Below, one piece after another: positions 51,711 to 58,020 of a stretch of DNA of 64,000 nt (the first letter of the stretch is position 1; each line of letters starts with the position of its first letter). Under the pieces are notes generated by a model. The model was not told the origin of the DNA, ran no database searches, and worked only from the letters and a program-made list of their open reading frames with translations. Both the position numbers and the translations under genes were made by a program. The stretch is from Cylindrospermum stagnale PCC 7417 (GTDB taxonomy: Bacteria; Cyanobacteriota; Cyanobacteriia; Cyanobacteriales; Nostocaceae): contig NC_019757.1 in NCBI RefSeq assembly GCF_000317535.1, forward strand, positions 4,367,501-4,431,500. The letters are read 5' to 3'.

Positions 51711-51962
51711 TCAGCCTCTTTCTAATTGCAGTCGTAAGTCAGCAAAGTCAACATTAAAGGTATTGACTTGTTCACTCTTCAGGGCGAGGAGAAAATCTTT
51801 TTGGTCTAAATCTGCGAGACTAGCTGCTTTCTCTTGGGAAATTTCACCACGTTTATACCAGTGAATAGCCCCAGCAAGCCGCAACTCACGGACAAACTCA
51901 TCAGGTGACAGGTGCAAGGCAGAAAAAGTTTCTGCGGGTAGCTCTAAGCTAAAAGTTGCCAT
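51711..51962 (-). CDS. UPF0175 family protein (antitoxin-like)
   Basis: An 83-residue protein with the UPF0175 pattern: a short strand (MATFSLELP), HLSPDEFVRELRLAGAIHWYKRGEISQEKAASLADL, a helix-turn-helix like that of antitoxins paired with PIN or DUF3368 toxins. No toxin gene lies downstream or upstream, so it is solitary here. It would bind DNA as a small regulator. Confidence 0.85.
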   Translation of the reverse strand: MATFSLELPAETFSALHLSPDEFVRELRLAGAIHWYKRGEISQEKAASLADLDQKDFLLALKSEQVNTFNVDFADLRLQLERG

Positions 51963-52069: not shown

Positions 52070-52855
52070 TTACGCCTCTGGTTCAATGCCAAGTGCCTTC
52101 AACTGTGCAGTTAGGCGATCGCTTTTTTGGCGTTCCATTTCCGCTCTTTGGCGTTCCATTTCCGCTCTTTGGCGTTCCATTTCCGCCCTTTGTCTTTCCT
52201 GTTCGGCTCTTTCGTCACCTGTCAACAACAAATTGCCTTGCAAATCCCACCACCGCAACCACGGTAATTCTGCATTCTGATATTCTCCCTGCCATAAACC
52301 TAACTCAACTCCCAAGGGATTAATGGGATAATGTCCCCGTTCATTTGCTGGTAATAACTGATATTGTCCTTCTATCAGGTGATAGACTTCTACGCTGGCT
52401 TTATTCACTTCATAAATGCCATAAAAAGCTGGATGAATCACCTGCTCATAAATCCAAAATTTACCCGTCCAAGGAGTTTTATCTCTCTCTTCGCTGCCAT
52501 TTCCAGAAACAAATTCTAAGACAATTAATGGAGCGATGTATTCTTGCCAAAGCACATAAGAGCGGCGCATTTGCCCATTTAAGGTAGGTGGTACATTGGG
52601 TACATAGAACCAGTCAGGAGCTTCTGCACCGCGTTCTGGGGGGTCGGTAATGCGCCAGTAGATACCGCTATCTTGACCTATGCAATATTGCCCGTCAGGG
52701 TGGCGTTTTTGCAATACTGGTTTAATGGAATCGGTTAGGAGGATGCTTTGGGGATGTTCTTGGAAGTTTTTCACGAAAGTTCCGTCAGACTCTGGAAGTT
52801 GCGTATGGTCTGGGAGGGTGGTTCCAGAGGTGGGGGGATTGCTGGTAAAGGTCAT
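52070..52855 (-). CDS. Uma2-family (DUF820) protein with coiled-coil tail
   Basis: A 261-residue protein. Its N-terminus (LPDHTQLPESDGTF) is duplicated in the relic at 438-578. The core has APDWFYVPNV (~residues 78-87) and APLIVLEFVSGNGSEERD (~108-125), the acid/acid active-site pattern of this restriction-endonuclease-like fold, then FWIYEQVIHPAFYGIYE. The C-terminal ~45 residues hold repeated AEMERQR heptads encoded by near-identical 21-bp repeats and end LKALGIEPEA. The biological role is unproven. Confidence 0.88.
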   Translation of the reverse strand: MTFTSNPPTSGTTLPDHTQLPESDGTFVKNFQEHPQSILLTDSIKPVLQKRHPDGQYCIGQDSGIYWRITDPPERGAEAPDWFYVPNVPPTLNGQMRRSYVLWQEYIAPLIVLEFVSGNGSEERDKTPWTGKFWIYEQVIHPAFYGIYEVNKASVEVYHLIEGQYQLLPANERGHYPINPLGVELGLWQGEYQNAELPWLRWWDLQGNLLLTGDERAEQERQRAEMERQRAEMERQRAEMERQKSDRLTAQLKALGIEPEA

Positions 52856-52941: not shown

Positions 52942-52968
52942 ATAATGCAATGTATTATTGTGCATTAT
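52942..52968 (+). promoter_or_regulatory. operator dyad before the ParD/ParE pair
   Basis: ATAATGCA (52942-52949) and its perfect complement TGCATTAT (52961-52968) flank 11 bases and end ten bases before the antitoxin start codon. A dyad at this place is what a ribbon-helix-helix antitoxin would bind for autoregulation. Confidence 0.6.
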
Positions 52969-52978
52969 AGGTGATTTC

Positions 52979-53239
52979 ATGAGTACCACGAGTTTTCGGC
53001 TTGATGATGACTTGCAAGAGAAACTTGATACCACTGCTAACCGTCTCAAGCGTTCTAAGGGTTGGATAATCAATGACGCTTTACGTCAGTATATTGAGCA
53101 GGAAGAGCGTAAACAGCAGATGTTAGAAGAGACTCAAGATGCGCTCGCGGATATTGAAGCGGGTCGTGTAGTATCAGGAGAAGATGTGATGAAGTGGCTA
53201 GAGACTTGGGGAACTGCTGCTGAAACCAAGGCTCCTTAA
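52979..53239 (+). CDS. ribbon-helix-helix antitoxin (ParD/CopG type)
   Basis: An 86-residue protein from the ATG at 52979. The N-terminal RHH domain is TTSFRLDDDLQEKLDTTANR then SKGWIINDALRQYI (~residues 3-43): the strand TSFRLDD contacts DNA and the two helices dimerise. The C-terminal part (EETQDALADIEAGRVVSGED) is the acidic toxin-binding segment. The in-frame ATG seven codons upstream lies inside the dyad and is unlikely. The toxin starts two bases after its stop. Confidence 0.92.
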   Translation: MSTTSFRLDDDLQEKLDTTANRLKRSKGWIINDALRQYIEQEERKQQMLEETQDALADIEAGRVVSGEDVMKWLETWGTAAETKAP

Positions 53240-53241
53240 TT

Positions 53242-53520
53242 ATGAGGCTGGAGTTTTCAGAAAGCGCGATTCAATATTTGATTCGGCTGCGGGAGTTTAT
53301 CGCGGTTCATAACCCAAAAGCAGCAGAACGCGTATCTCTGCGGCTACGACAAGCAATTGGCAAAATTGTACTGCATCCCGACATAGGGCGTTCTGTACCG
53401 GAGTTTGAGAATGTGCGTGAACTTGTAGCGGGTAATTATGTTGTGCGATATTTACGGCTTGAAGATGTAATTTTTATATTAAGAATATGGCACGGTAAGG
53501 AGTTCCGTGATTTTGGGTAA
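53242..53520 (+). CDS. ParE/RelE-superfamily toxin
   Basis: A 92-residue protein: MRLEFSESAIQYLIRLREFI, then NPKAAERVSLRLRQAIGKI, HPDIGRSVPEFENVRELVAGNYVV, and ILRIWHGKEFRDFG. The central PDIGR and C-terminal IWHG pattern fit ParE/RelE toxins of type II systems, which attack gyrase or mRNA. It is two bases downstream of its antitoxin, the usual operon order. It seems intact, unlike the relE relic at 17905. Confidence 0.92.
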   Translation: MRLEFSESAIQYLIRLREFIAVHNPKAAERVSLRLRQAIGKIVLHPDIGRSVPEFENVRELVAGNYVVRYLRLEDVIFILRIWHGKEFRDFG

Positions 53521-53562
53521 GAGGGGAAATAAGCGATCGCACAATTTAATTAAATCTAAAAA

Positions 53563-54528
53563 TTACTGTATTTTTTTACCAATATACCCAATAATAATTT
53601 TGCCTGTCCCTAATTCTGGACAGATCCCTAATTCTGAAGAGAAATGAAGCCGCCAAGCGCCTGCACCAGTCATTCTGAGATGCAAACTAAAAATACGCTT
53701 CTTACCATCAGGACATTTAAAGGTTAGTTTTTCTTCTAAGTCTTTAAGCCTAGACTCACTTTCTGGAGTAGCTTTGCTAGGAAGAAGGTCTAAATCAAAA
53801 GCTCCGTCTTTCCAAGATTTACAGTAATTTTCTAATTCAAATAACTTCTTTTCAACCTGTCTTAACATTGGAGTTCCATAATAAAGGCTTTGGATCTGTT
53901 TGCTGACATTTTCGCAAAACTCCAGACTGGGAAATAATTCTTTTCTACGCTCCCAAATATCCTCACCATCATTAACTCCAGTGCGAATTCGCTCCTGTAT
54001 CCATTCAGAGTGGTCTTGAATATGAATATTACGACTAGCGTGACGAATTTCTACAGCTTGATTAATTATCTCGTCATTATCATTCAGTTGAATCAAATCT
54101 AATTCCAGACAGCTTAAATCCCAAGACTGATCAGATATAAAACTAATTGCTACTGTATCGAGTAAATAAGCAACACCCAGGCCAATTGCTGACTTCCCTT
54201 GATGATAAGCGTCAGACAAGCCAGCATTATTTTCAATATCTTGAATCTTTGGATTTAATAAATCCTGTGATAAAGGTGTCTTAGTTGCTAAATTTTTAAT
54301 AAAACGTCGCTCTTTTTCATTAGCTTCTTTACACCATTGACTTATAGAATAATTAGGTGCAAGCATGATAGTATAAAAATATTCGTTAGAGCGAATACTT
54401 ACCTTAACACCTTGGGCTGTAAATGCTCTAATAGTTTCAATAAAATCAGACATCCATTGTCTTGCTATTTCTACATTAGAATCAATATTTTGTACAGAAA
54501 GTTCATTAAATACTAGATCAAACTCCAC
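53563..54528 (-). CDS. third protein of the DUF262/ATPase operon, unknown family
   Basis: A 321-residue protein from a GTG three bases after the ATPase stop, preceded by GAGGGAGAT. The first ~100 residues include an SIRSNEYFYTIMLAPNYSI strand-rich part and a SQWCKEANEKERRFIKNLAT helix; a helical centre follows; the end is beta-rich (RIFSLHLRMTGAGAWRLHFS, then KIIIGYIGKKIQ). The last pattern recalls the C-terminus of HigB/RelE-like domains (R.HF, IGYIGKH), which is only an inference. It may be the effector of the triad. The region is visibly AT-rich. Confidence 0.72.
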   Translation of the reverse strand: MEFDLVFNELSVQNIDSNVEIARQWMSDFIETIRAFTAQGVKVSIRSNEYFYTIMLAPNYSISQWCKEANEKERRFIKNLATKTPLSQDLLNPKIQDIENNAGLSDAYHQGKSAIGLGVAYLLDTVAISFISDQSWDLSCLELDLIQLNDNDEIINQAVEIRHASRNIHIQDHSEWIQERIRTGVNDGEDIWERRKELFPSLEFCENVSKQIQSLYYGTPMLRQVEKKLFELENYCKSWKDGAFDLDLLPSKATPESESRLKDLEEKLTFKCPDGKKRIFSLHLRMTGAGAWRLHFSSELGICPELGTGKIIIGYIGKKIQ

Positions 54529-54531
54529 ATC

Positions 54532-55737
54532 CTAATCTCCCTCGACAGGTTCTAATAAAGCATCTAAGCTTTTTTCCCACTCATCAAAAAATCCATCAGG
54601 CCAGCGGTCAATTCTACCATCGCGATAAATCCGTGGGGAAATTACTTTTGTAAAAGCTTGTCCTTGTTTTTCTTGACGTTGAAAATAATGTAATTGCACA
54701 TCTTCCGGCTTAAGTTTGCCACCATGAACAGCAAGACGAATACCATTTAAAACATGATCGCTATGAGTTTCTATCACTACTTGAATACCACAACTAGCTG
54801 CTAGTGCTAACAATTCTCCCATTTTTGCTTGTCCTCTAGGATGAAGATGAGCTTCAGGATTTTCAACTAGAATTAGTGTACCAGGAGGAGATGCAAGTAC
54901 AGCTACAATAATTGGTAAAGTGTAGGTAATTCCAAATCCTACATTAGTGGCACGGTAAGGATTACTAAATTCTTTTCCCATATCAAATGAGTATTGTAAA
55001 CTCATCAAATCAACTGATGTAATTGCATTGAGATGAATTATTGTGCCAGGGCTAATTTCTTCCATCCATGCCTTAACTTGATACTGCAACTTTTCCGAAT
55101 CCGAATCTGATTTTGGATGACTCAATTTGCTTCGTTCACCTTGTTTGGGACGTTCAAAAGCTTTAGGAACTTTCTGTGAAACTCCATGATCAAGTCCAAC
55201 AGTATTTATTCTCGAATTACCAAAAACGTTAAGAAAATGTGCTGTATATTCACCTCTCGTACCAATTTGAAAATGTTGACGTACTAAATAATCTGACATT
55301 TCAAAGACATTACGAGGGCCAAGTCGTTCTGCTTGTAGATAGTGAAAGAAATCTCCAAAAAGGCTAAATTCATGTAGTTCTTTAGTTATCGGTGCAGTAT
55401 CACTGCGTAGAACATCTGCTTGTTCATCATATCTAAAGCGCCACATCCATGTTTTTCTTTCTTGACGATCTACTAAAAGTTCAAAACTAATTATTTCCTC
55501 TTTTGCCCACTCAAATAAAGCATCTTTAGCAGTACCAATACGAACCAAATCACCATTTAAAGCTAGGCGTTTTGTTTGTAAAAGTCTTTGTTGATAAGAT
55601 TGGCGTAATAAGAGAAGTGATTGTAATACTGAAGATTTACCCATGCCATTAAGACCAGATAATAGAGTTAATGGTCTAAACTCTAATAACTGATCTTCAA
55701 ATGGTTTGAAATTTTTTAAATGTAGTGAATGTATCAT
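54532..55737 (-). CDS. AAA ATPase, DUF3696 type (OLD/RecF-like)
   Basis: A 401-residue protein with an ABC/SMC-like split ATPase. It starts SLHLKNFKPFEDQ, has Walker A GLNGMGKSSVLQSL (~residues 28-41), and a C-terminal GFGITYTLPIIVAVL and PGTLILVENPEAHLHPRGQ (signature and Walker B with Glu, ~275-310), then VVIETHSDHVLNGIR (switch/H-loop). A basic C-terminal tail of the DUF3696 kind follows. Such ATPases occur in phage-defence operons with nuclease or toxin partners. Its ATG overlaps the DUF262 stop by four bases (ATGA). Confidence 0.9.
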   Translation of the reverse strand: MIHSLHLKNFKPFEDQLLEFRPLTLLSGLNGMGKSSVLQSLLLLRQSYQQRLLQTKRLALNGDLVRIGTAKDALFEWAKEEIISFELLVDRQERKTWMWRFRYDEQADVLRSDTAPITKELHEFSLFGDFFHYLQAERLGPRNVFEMSDYLVRQHFQIGTRGEYTAHFLNVFGNSRINTVGLDHGVSQKVPKAFERPKQGERSKLSHPKSDSDSEKLQYQVKAWMEEISPGTIIHLNAITSVDLMSLQYSFDMGKEFSNPYRATNVGFGITYTLPIIVAVLASPPGTLILVENPEAHLHPRGQAKMGELLALAASCGIQVVIETHSDHVLNGIRLAVHGGKLKPEDVQLHYFQRQEKQGQAFTKVISPRIYRDGRIDRWPDGFFDEWEKSLDALLEPVEGD

Positions 55738-56864
55738 AATAATACTTCTTTAAGAATTGCTTTAATTTCATTCAATCGATCTAATACAGTCTTAAGAGTT
55801 CCTGTACTCCTATAGATAGGAGTATCAAATTTACCATCATTAGTCAAATATATTATTTTTTGTTTTAAATTTTCTTTCCTTTCTTTAATCATCTTAACCT
55901 CTTGATCGTTAAGTTTATATAAATTAACAGACCAAGCCTCAAATAAGGCTTTATTGATGGGATAGCGTTTTGTTCCTTTTATTTTCCGAAAACCATCTTT
56001 ACCAAATATGTCAAAAGCTAAATTCATTAAATTTAGAAATTTATTAGTTATTGATTTTATTTCCTCTTCTGGCATGAGATTTATATGTGCCATTGATTGA
56101 TCCAATAGCTTTTTAAAGCTTTTGTTATTCTCAAATAATTCTTGATTATTTATCATAAATACTAAAACTCTAAGAATGCACTCACGATCCGCCATTCGCT
56201 CTGACTTTATTCCTTTTCCAGTAGCTTTTTTAAATTCATCTGATGCAGCTAATTTTTCTAATAATTTTGTCGCTTTACCTTGATTCAAGCCATGACGAAT
56301 TTCCTGTGTTGAGAGAGATAACGCACTGGTATTAATACGTTCAAATATAGCTTGCTTAAATTCTTTAGCTGTACCTGGCTCAAGCAAAATAACTGTAAGG
56401 AGTGTTTCTTCTATACGACGTTGATAATTACGTGGGATTTCATCATATATCTTGCCGTTAAACTCAGTGAATGATTCTAGTCCAGTTAGCTTAAGTTGTT
56501 TATCTATTACAAACTCTTTTAAAGTAGTTAGCCTTTGTGATCCATCTATCATTAACCATTTTTCTTCATTAGTTGCATCAATATAAAATACTGGTATAGG
56601 AATACGAAGCAAAATAGACTCAATAAGTCTACTTTGAGCTATTTTATTCCAAACGAATTTGCGCTGGAATTCAGGATATAATTCAATTTCATTGTTTCTA
56701 ATCTTTTTAAGTAAGTAGTCAATATTAAATTGTCTAGTTTCAACCCTAATTTTAGTTGGATCAAACGGTTCACTTATTTCCTCTTCTTCTGGTGCAGTTT
56801 CCTCTTCTTCTATTTCTGCATCTTCTTCAATTAACTCTGAATTAACGGTATTCATCTCTGTCAT
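55734..56864 (-). CDS. DUF262 domain protein
   Basis: A 376-residue protein. A strongly acidic N-terminal tail (~1-38, EEDAEIEEEE) is followed by the DUF262 ParB/Srx-like fold: LYPEFQRKFVWNKIAQSRLIESI (~62-84), PVFYIDATNEEKWLMIDGSQRLTTL (~90-115, with the DGxQR.T catalytic motif), and FERINTSALSLSTQEIRH (~170-187). There is no DUF1524 HNH nuclease domain as in GmrSD, so this is the stand-alone type. It is the first gene of a three-gene operon and visibly AT-rich compared with its neighbours. Confidence 0.9.
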   Translation of the reverse strand: MTEMNTVNSELIEEDAEIEEEETAPEEEEISEPFDPTKIRVETRQFNIDYLLKKIRNNEIELYPEFQRKFVWNKIAQSRLIESILLRIPIPVFYIDATNEEKWLMIDGSQRLTTLKEFVIDKQLKLTGLESFTEFNGKIYDEIPRNYQRRIEETLLTVILLEPGTAKEFKQAIFERINTSALSLSTQEIRHGLNQGKATKLLEKLAASDEFKKATGKGIKSERMADRECILRVLVFMINNQELFENNKSFKKLLDQSMAHINLMPEEEIKSITNKFLNLMNLAFDIFGKDGFRKIKGTKRYPINKALFEAWSVNLYKLNDQEVKMIKERKENLKQKIIYLTNDGKFDTPIYRSTGTLKTVLDRLNEIKAILKEVLL

Positions 56865-57037
56865 ATCACTTACTCCTTGGCATTAATTGCTATTCAGTCC
56901 CTTCTTAGTAATCCTTGGTAATACTACCTGAGTAAATAGCAGTTTTCTTAAATAACTTACTTTGATCGTACTATCTTCCATAGTTGGCAGTTGTAATCAA
57001 CATAAATTGATCGCATCCCCAGCACTCCGCAACTAAT

Positions 57038-57065
57038 AAAGCAGCCGGAGCACACCAGCTGCTTT
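57038..57065 (-). terminator. terminator of the metF-like gene
   Basis: AAAGCAGC pairs with GCTGCTTT (8-bp perfect stem, 12-base loop). On the minus strand it is followed by TTTATTAGTT. It lies 37 bases after the stop codon of the metF-like gene. Confidence 0.65.
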
Positions 57066-57102
57066 GGTAAAAAATCCGTCACTCTATCTACTCAGATAGC
57101 AT

Positions 57103-58020
57103 CTAACTAATCTTCTCTACTCCTGCTAAATCTAAGATGGGTGCGATCAAATCTTCTCGCTTCACGGCCATCATGTGGACACCTTGGCACAATTGTCGCG
57201 CTATCTGCACTTGCTCTGCGGCAATCTGCATTCCTTCCTCTAGAGGATCTTTGGCTTTTGCTAATCGATCAATAATGTGTTGGGGAATATTCACGCCGGG
57301 AACGGCTTTATTAATAAATTGGGCATTCTTTGCAGATTTCAACAGAAAAATTCCTGCCAAAATCGGTTTTTTATAACCTGCGGCGATCGCATCCATAAAC
57401 TTCTCTAACCGCTCAAAGTCTGTAATCAACTGGCTTTGGAAGAATTGCGCCCCTGCTTCTATCTTACGTTCAAAGCGACTTTGCAAACCTGACCAACTCT
57501 TAGATTGCGGATCTACCGCTGCACCTGCAAATAAGTCCAGTGTCCCATCTGTTAGGGATTTATCATTACAATCAACTCCCTGATTCATCTTCCTAATCAG
57601 TTGCAGCAGACGCACCGCTTCTAAGTCAAATACAGCTTTGGCTTCTGGGTGATCGCCTGCTTTTACTGGGTCGCCTGTTAAGGCTAAAATGTTCCGGATA
57701 CCCAAGGCATGAGCACCCATTAAGTCAGCTTGTAAACCAATCCGGTTGCGATCGCGGCAAGCCATCTGACAAACCGGCTCAATTCCATTCTGCAACAAAA
57801 TCGCCGACGCTACCAACGAAGACATCCGCAACACCGCACGGCTACCATCGGTAATATTGACAGCATGAACCCTTCCCTTAAGAGTCGCTGCCATTTTAAT
57901 CATCTGCGTTGGATCTCCCCCCTTGGGTGGTGCAACCTCGGCGGTAACTAAAAATTCACCTGCTAGGGCAGCACTACGGAAGGTATTCAAGACTGGGATA
58001 CTGTGGGTATCAGGAGGCAT
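57103..58020 (-). CDS. methylenetetrahydrofolate reductase-like protein
   Basis: A 305-residue TIM-barrel flavoprotein of the MetF family. It has FLVTAEVAPPKGGDP (~residues 23-37, with the catalytic Glu), AVNITDGSRAVLRMSS (~53-68), PVCQMACRDRNRIGLQ (~82-97), and ALGIRNILALTGDPVKAGDH (~105-124, FAD-binding). The C-terminal part ends QGVHMMAVKREDLI. It should reduce methylene-THF or bind a related folate in one-carbon metabolism. It is 60 bases downstream of trpS on the same strand. Confidence 0.9.
   Translation of the reverse strand: MPPDTHSIPVLNTFRSAALAGEFLVTAEVAPPKGGDPTQMIKMAATLKGRVHAVNITDGSRAVLRMSSLVASAILLQNGIEPVCQMACRDRNRIGLQADLMGAHALGIRNILALTGDPVKAGDHPEAKAVFDLEAVRLLQLIRKMNQGVDCNDKSLTDGTLDLFAGAAVDPQSKSWSGLQSRFERKIEAGAQFFQSQLITDFERLEKFMDAIAAGYKKPILAGIFLLKSAKNAQFINKAVPGVNIPQHIIDRLAKAKDPLEEGMQIAAEQVQIARQLCQGVHMMAVKREDLIAPILDLAGVEKIS

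Follow-up and report, generated by a model that had tools for sequence, protein, structure and literature searches.

A Menshen Operon at a Variable Chromosomal Site of Cylindrospermum stagnale and a Candidate Effector Module in Its NsnC Protein

Introduction

In the cyanobacterium Cylindrospermum stagnale PCC 7417, a stretch of 64,000 nucleotides (contig NC_019757.1, positions 4,367,501 to 4,431,500; the whole of it is called the window here) carries an operon of three closely packed genes that encode a DUF262 protein, an ABC/RecF-like ATPase and a 321-residue third protein. The locus raises the question of which system these genes constitute, whether they are inherited as a unit, and which of their products would act as the effector. 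A sequence-only reading had taken them for a defence operon, likening them to the system named Menshen (NsnA-B-C), keeping a new system as its fallback and leaving the third protein without a family. The analysis reported here indicates that the three genes almost certainly represent a complete, apparently intact Menshen set (nsnA-nsnB-nsnC). Menshen itself is an already known bacterial anti-phage system, reportedly discovered in the 2022 work of Millman, and the window operon is a further copy of it; a finding that could have been filed as new thus belongs to a named system. The account developed below, in which a Menshen copy at a variable site aborts infection through an ATPase-gated NsnC toxin effector, appears reasonably probable as a whole.

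Results

Protein families were assigned with the PADLOC-DB 2.0.0 models, Pfam and NCBIfam. The best PADLOC models cover nearly the whole length of all three proteins and are those of NsnA, NsnB and NsnC (Table 1); runner-up models are much weaker for the first gene (1.2e-34) and the second (3.3e-35), and all 11 PADLOC families listed for the third gene are NsnC models. No NCBIfam family reached its cut-off for the operon proteins. Furthermore, the operon displays the gene adjacency, the common strand and the A-B-C order of Menshen. It is on the PADLOC, Pfam and NCBIfam results for the three proteins that the assignment of the operon as a complete Menshen set rests. The PADLOC comparison that the sequence-only reading had called for bears out its suggestion of Menshen, through near whole-length matches for the three proteins and a conserved gene order. 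The protein that it had left unplaced is NsnC by PADLOC, and its fallback of a new defence system is ruled out by the same matches.

In NsnA, GmrSD_N/DUF262 is the sole Pfam domain (6.5e-22), NCBIfam gives no family, and a sequence search of solved structures returned no match. DUF1524, the HNH nuclease domain, is absent from all three proteins (Pfam, E up to 1), in agreement with the earlier description of a DUF262 protein devoid of a nuclease domain, and type IV restriction was rejected on this ground. The DGSQR motif of NsnA is the counterpart of the nucleotide-pocket motif of GmrS, given as (I/V)DGQQR (Mariano and Blower, 2023; PMC10952713). Among NsnA relatives, DGxQR recurs in all 43 whose frame exceeds 300 aa and in two of four shorter frames, and a second NsnA pattern is matched by none of 47 relatives. 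NsnB contains AAA_15 (1.8e-21), AAA_21 (2.2e-19) and DUF3696 (6e-21) in Pfam; the Toprim model was not found in it (Pfam, E up to 1), and an OLD nuclease was rejected for this reason. By sequence, NsnB has a single relative of solved structure, an OLD protein (1e-5), which it matches over residues 1-44, at the Walker A end. All 45 NsnB relatives whose frames exceed 300 aa carry the Walker A motif, as do two of four shorter frames; of these 45, the Walker B pattern used is matched by 40 and the H-loop pattern by 44.

Relatives of NsnC were sought in genome contigs with 16 aligned NsnC sequences as query; besides the window protein, these came from 15 loci, chosen without L047, which bears a stop, without truncated ones and without L076, which is the window copy itself. 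The resulting 50 loci are not wholly independent, since L102 and L103 look like one locus taken twice and several loci belong to genomes of the phylum sample described below. An NsnB match lies directly upstream of NsnC in 48 of the 50 loci and an NsnA match is present in 47, partial matches being counted. At L111 the contig starts inside NsnB and shows no NsnA, at L136 a C-terminal NsnC fragment has NsnB downstream and no NsnA, and L142 has neither partner. Of 47 related A-B pairs, 36 overlap by 4 bases, the start positions being projected from the alignment. The best matches to the proteins of the window have median identities of 60% (NsnB, 49 loci), 46% (NsnC, 50 loci) and 44% (NsnA, 47 loci), and the disrupted copies include L135, L138 and L145. 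By record title, 41 loci are cyanobacterial and nine belong to other groups, labelled Herpetosiphonaceae (L131), Thiomargarita (L135), Spirochaetia (L137), Brevibacillus (L140), Saprospiraceae (L141), Bacillota (L142), Leptospirales (L143), Cytophagales (L144) and Lachnospiraceae (L146). Because the same order returns in dozens of genomes, the three-gene arrangement is not a product of chance.

In a phylum sample of 386 genomes, the NsnC model was found in 23, strongly (E < 1e-80) in 12, and NsnB (1e-40) and NsnA (1e-20) in 40 and 114, respectively, the latter two counts being based on few scored candidates per genome. DUF262 proteins of the NsnA family thus appear to be broader than Menshen. 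Of the NsnB matches with E < 1e-79 in this sample, 29 of 30 are adjoined by an NsnA match, the exception being L085. Judged from these matches, the operon is truly inherited as one unit, with a patchy distribution. The independent occurrence of the genes, named by the sequence-only reading as a possible objection, is contradicted for NsnB and NsnC by the pairing counts and pertains to the more widespread NsnA-like DUF262 proteins. No NsnC relatives were found in viral contigs or phages, and a single one of 72,556 plasmid records carries one (Methylobacterium, 28% identical over 92%); these searches led common phage or plasmid cargo to be rejected as an explanation. Several loci show incomplete arrangements: at L085 (4397-6145), NsnB with no neighbouring NsnA match is followed by an HD-domain gene, a possible variant or remnant; L068 (4831-6232) is a Menshen copy without NsnB whose C-terminal NsnC remnant is 85% identical to the window protein; and at L145 (3108-5363) NsnB is partly missing and a C-terminal NsnC remnant persists.

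NsnC has no Pfam family near the cut-off, and in searches of solved structures its sequence returned one match (E 1.6) and its profile none. Profiles of its two modules (residues 1-165 and 190-321; 39 sequences, L142 left out) were run on 2204 open reading frames (ORFs) from 56 loci. The N-terminal profile alone matches 11 ORFs (L052-L059, L070, L071 and L080; E 1.4e-17 to 0.0012), nine of them downstream of an NsnA-NsnB pair, one after a partial NsnB (L071) and one next to a damaged pair but on the other strand (L058); those tested in PADLOC (L052, L059, L070 and L080) match another NsnC model, PDLC03898. The C-terminal profile matches NsnC genes and fragments, together with the NsnC of L060, and it weakly matches the ends of a coiled-coil protein at L072 (6852-7952; E 2.5e-4, frame residues 297-365) and of a HIRAN protein at L073 (7146-8762; E 0.0012, frame residues 474-538). 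Neither of these two loci has an NsnA or NsnB match, and in PADLOC their proteins match HEC-07 (8.3e-14 and 8.7e-14) and the NsnC model PDLC03912 (3.5e-11 and 3.2e-13). A third NsnC type, PDLC03889 (L077), is matched by neither module profile at E < 0.01. The profiles and the PADLOC matches show that NsnC is modular, with a constant N-terminal part and an exchangeable C-terminal part, and its end seems common to other defence candidates, HEC-07-like and HIRAN proteins among them. Such modularity may already be in print, given the title of a paper on Menshen domain polymorphism (Li et al., 2025; NAR gkaf357) that is listed in the references of PMC12704722 and PMC12839542.

Two side observations touch these ends. 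In Okeania, 365-bp tandem duplications of the nsnC 3' part (2.5 copies with 97% matches at L121, 5619-6535; 2.3 copies with 95% matches at L124, 5526-6381) leave extra copies of C-terminal module sequence downstream of nsnC, and the nsnC frame of L124 ends early, at 283 aa; these duplications may be a trace of cassette turnover at the effector end. The HIRAN protein of L073 lies near a large gene that reads as helicase-like.

Residue conservation was assessed on 40 aligned proteins, those of the window and of 39 of the 45 NsnC ORFs; L103 (same values as L102), L130 (shifted start), L124 and L127 (short) and L135 and L138 (disrupted) were left out, and five NsnC loci have no ORF (L107, L118, L128, L136 and L145). 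H283 and R293 are invariant across the alignment and E256 is nearly so. R293 lies in a WRLHF stretch and is presumably comparable to the conserved arginine of RelE/YoeB. AlphaFold2 modelled full-length NsnC with a pLDDT of 90.4 and a pTM of 0.79, and residues 188-321 with values of 88.4 and 0.85. The model of this C-terminal module starts with a pair of short helices and one short strand, continues with three helices (8, 19 and 7 residues) and closes with five strands. In a PDB library of 350,542 chains, its top match is E. coli RelE (TM by target 0.54, E 0.15, probability 0.80); S. aureus YoeB takes ranks 2, 3 and 5 (TM by target 0.56-0.62), an unrelated carbohydrate-binding module rank 4 and HigB2 rank 50.

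The chromosomal location of the operon was compared with two congeners (loci L150 and L151). In G386, the sequence agrees with that of the window as far as 53522, the parE end, and again from 57103 (metF-like gene); the DNA in between holds a Uma2-like gene and two genes that, like the metF-like one, are named from a reading of their translations, here as kinase-like. In G030, the metF-like gene is adjoined by a UPF0175-like gene and an ORF of 186 aa, near a contig end. The window NsnC query returned nothing in either genome. Because the congeners carry other DNA there and show no NsnC match, the operon sits at a variable chromosomal site, window positions 53522-57103, between parDE and the metF-like gene. 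The possibility that the ATPase and DUF262 genes are housekeeping neighbours, also raised by the sequence-only reading, is rejected by the patchy distribution of NsnC and by the differing DNA at this site. Two Uma2-like genes were seen at the site in G386.

The layout described by the sequence-only reading, with three same-strand genes, an ATGA overlap, a 3-base gap and AT-rich DNA, is confirmed by the coordinates (Table 1) and base composition. Three bases (54529-54531) separate the stop of the second gene from the start of the third, and GGAG precedes the start codons of genes 1 and 3. The operon has a GC content of 0.338 and the window one of 0.432; of 607 sliding 3.3-kb stretches, just 2 are equally low. 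The operon is convergent with an RHH/ParE pair, beyond which lie Uma2 and UPF0175 genes; the ParD/ParE pair and Uma2 neighbours mentioned earlier were thus recovered with Pfam.

Table 1. Features of the window operon and its neighbours (window positions)
Feature	Position	Strand	Basis
nsnA, first gene, 376-aa DUF262 protein (GmrS N-domain, ParB/Srx-like NTPase fold), ATG start	55734..56864	-	PADLOC NsnA PDLC03877, 1.1e-124, residues 9-375
DGSQR motif of NsnA, residues 107-111	56532..56546	-	read from sequence
nsnA/nsnB ATGA overlap	55734..55737	-	read from sequence
nsnB, 401-aa ABC/RecF-like ATPase with DUF3696 C-terminal piece, ATG start	54532..55737	-	PADLOC NsnB PDLC03878, 8.7e-125, residues 1-396
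Walker A of NsnB, GLNGMGKSS, residues 28-36	55630..55656	-	read from sequence
Walker B/D-loop of NsnB, LILVENPEAHLHP, residues 288-300	54838..54876	-	read from sequence
nsnC, 321-aa third protein, GTG start	53563..54528	-	PADLOC NsnC PDLC03879, 1.8e-107, residues 1-321; PDLC03912, 7.6e-68
NsnC N-terminal module, ~residues 1-165	54034..54528	-	own profile and PADLOC cross-matches over ~1-160
NsnC C-terminal module, ~residues 188-321, candidate RelE/YoeB-like (BECR-fold) effector	53566..53967	-	model, conservation
ParE gene	53242..53520		Pfam
RHH gene	52958..53239		Pfam
Uma2 gene, beside operon	52070..52855		Pfam
UPF0175 gene, beside operon	51711..51962		Pfam

Discussion

The composition of the operon suggests a switch coupled to an effector. 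NsnA, a DUF262 NTPase, and NsnB, an ABC-type ATPase, would together form a sensor or switch that detects an infection signal, and NsnC would dock on this switch through its constant N-terminal module, as the sharing of that module implies. The C-terminal module would then be the effector, most likely, from its predicted fold, a RelE/YoeB-like RNase that stops translation; once released or activated, it would halt translation and thereby abort the infection. We favour this account because Pfam reveals no separate nuclease domain in NsnA or NsnB, because both retain nucleotide-binding motifs, and because the end of NsnC is exchangeable. In Menshen, mutation or deletion of the DUF262 gene has been described as abolishing phage resistance (Mariano and Blower, 2023; PMC10952713). 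NsnC is the likely effector, with E256, H283 and R293 as testable residues.

Several results weigh against a toxin at the end of NsnC. The full-length NsnC model has no Foldseek match at E 0.001 in PDB or BFVD, and the RelE/YoeB matches of the C-terminal module are not significant either, with none at E 0.001 and root-mean-square deviations of 4.5-7.0. Neither Pfam nor hhalign yields a sequence-profile match of this module to the RelE/YoeB/ParE family: Pfam BECR families are found in 0 of 40 C-terminal modules, and hhalign gives probabilities of 0.4 against YoeB and 0.2 against ParE, within the range of eight controls (0.1-0.6), and 63 for YoeB against ParE. The YoeB and ParE sets for hhalign were drawn from 30 loci each; extraction yielded many off-frame fragments, and once those no longer than 50 letters had been dropped, 18 sequences remained in either set, a few of the ParE ones still being short. 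The Ntox17-ending gene at L093 (2.7e-6), downstream of an NsnB-like ATPase, lends weak support to toxin ends, given that its locus has no NsnA match and the gene itself matches no PADLOC model. Lastly, published assignments would place the nuclease elsewhere: the ATPase component of Menshen has been called a predicted OLD nuclease (Mariano and Blower, 2023; PMC10952713), and PtuX, the DUF262 protein of the ptuXYZ system, has been given a putative nuclease function (Gerdes, 2025; PMC11980606).

These assignments point to a Menshen system in which the nuclease is NsnB, as an OLD-like enzyme, or NsnA, as a DNA-cutting DUF262 protein, with NsnC serving as a specificity or adaptor subunit. The fact that the only solved sequence relative of NsnB is an OLD protein is consistent with this arrangement, but that match is confined to the Walker A end, Pfam detects neither Toprim in NsnB nor DUF1524 in NsnA, and the exchangeable C-terminal part resides in NsnC, so that we regard it as quite unlikely. 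A somewhat less remote, though still unlikely, explanation is that NsnC ends in a domain for nucleic-acid binding or protein recognition, its C-terminal module acting as a variable sensor tip and not as a toxin. The missing sequence link to toxin families would fit such a role, the invariant NsnC residues could equally well be structural, and the module is also found at the end of coiled-coil and HIRAN proteins of unknown function; its best fold matches, however, are RelE and YoeB, and a BECR fold has been independently assigned to PtuZ, the third protein of ptuXYZ (Gerdes, 2025; PMC11980606).

It is also conceivable, yet highly improbable, that the window operon is a degenerate or inactive Menshen copy. 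Degraded relatives do exist (such as L047, L051, L058, L068, L069, L071, L074, L135, L138 and L145), and the last residues of the window NsnC are KKIQ, against RHLPT in many relatives. The shorter ending is nonetheless found in many other relatives too, and the three full-length frames, the conserved motifs and the GGAG before genes 1 and 3 all argue for an intact operon.

Comparison with Known Systems

NsnA shares with GmrSD, BrxU and SspE a DUF262 NTPase domain with the DGxQR motif, but the window operon lacks the DUF1524 HNH nuclease domain of those systems. Similarly, NsnB resembles the OLD nucleases and GajA of Gabija in its ABC-type ATPase part, but it has no Toprim and the operon encodes no helicase partner (GajB). 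For HEC-07, a candidate defence family in PADLOC, the likeness lies at the C-terminus: the L072 and L073 proteins match the ends of both the HEC-07 and the NsnC models, and differ from NsnC in their N-terminal parts. With Menshen itself, the operon shares all three components, the gene order and near full-length model matches; its NsnC is of the PDLC03879 type, and no defining difference from Menshen was found.

The closest parallel outside the Menshen nomenclature is ptuXYZ, which comprises a DUF262 protein, a P-loop ATPase and a two-domain third protein, PtuZ, with a PIN-like N-terminal domain and a C-terminal BECR fold (Gerdes, 2025; PMC11980606). The window operon has the same three-part architecture, and the best fold matches of its C-terminal module, RelE and YoeB, parallel the published BECR assignment, although they are not significant. 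A possible difference lies at the N-terminus, where a PIN-like domain is expected from PtuZ and no PIN protein is among the 50 PDB matches listed for the full-length NsnC model. The words Menshen and Nsn are absent from the main text of that paper, which cites Millman 2022 (Gerdes, 2025; PMC11980606). From the likeness of architecture we infer that ptuXYZ and Menshen are one system, and the two names in print suggest that it has perhaps been described twice. On this basis, a tentative proposal can be formulated that could well hold, even if it falls a little short of being probable: Menshen and ptuXYZ would be a single ATPase-gated polymorphic-toxin defence, in which a constant NsnA-NsnB switch is joined through the N-terminal docking adaptor of NsnC to an interchangeable C-terminal toxin cassette, here RelE/YoeB-like, that also arms HEC-07-like and HIRAN proteins and that would be held in check by the complex and not by an antitoxin.

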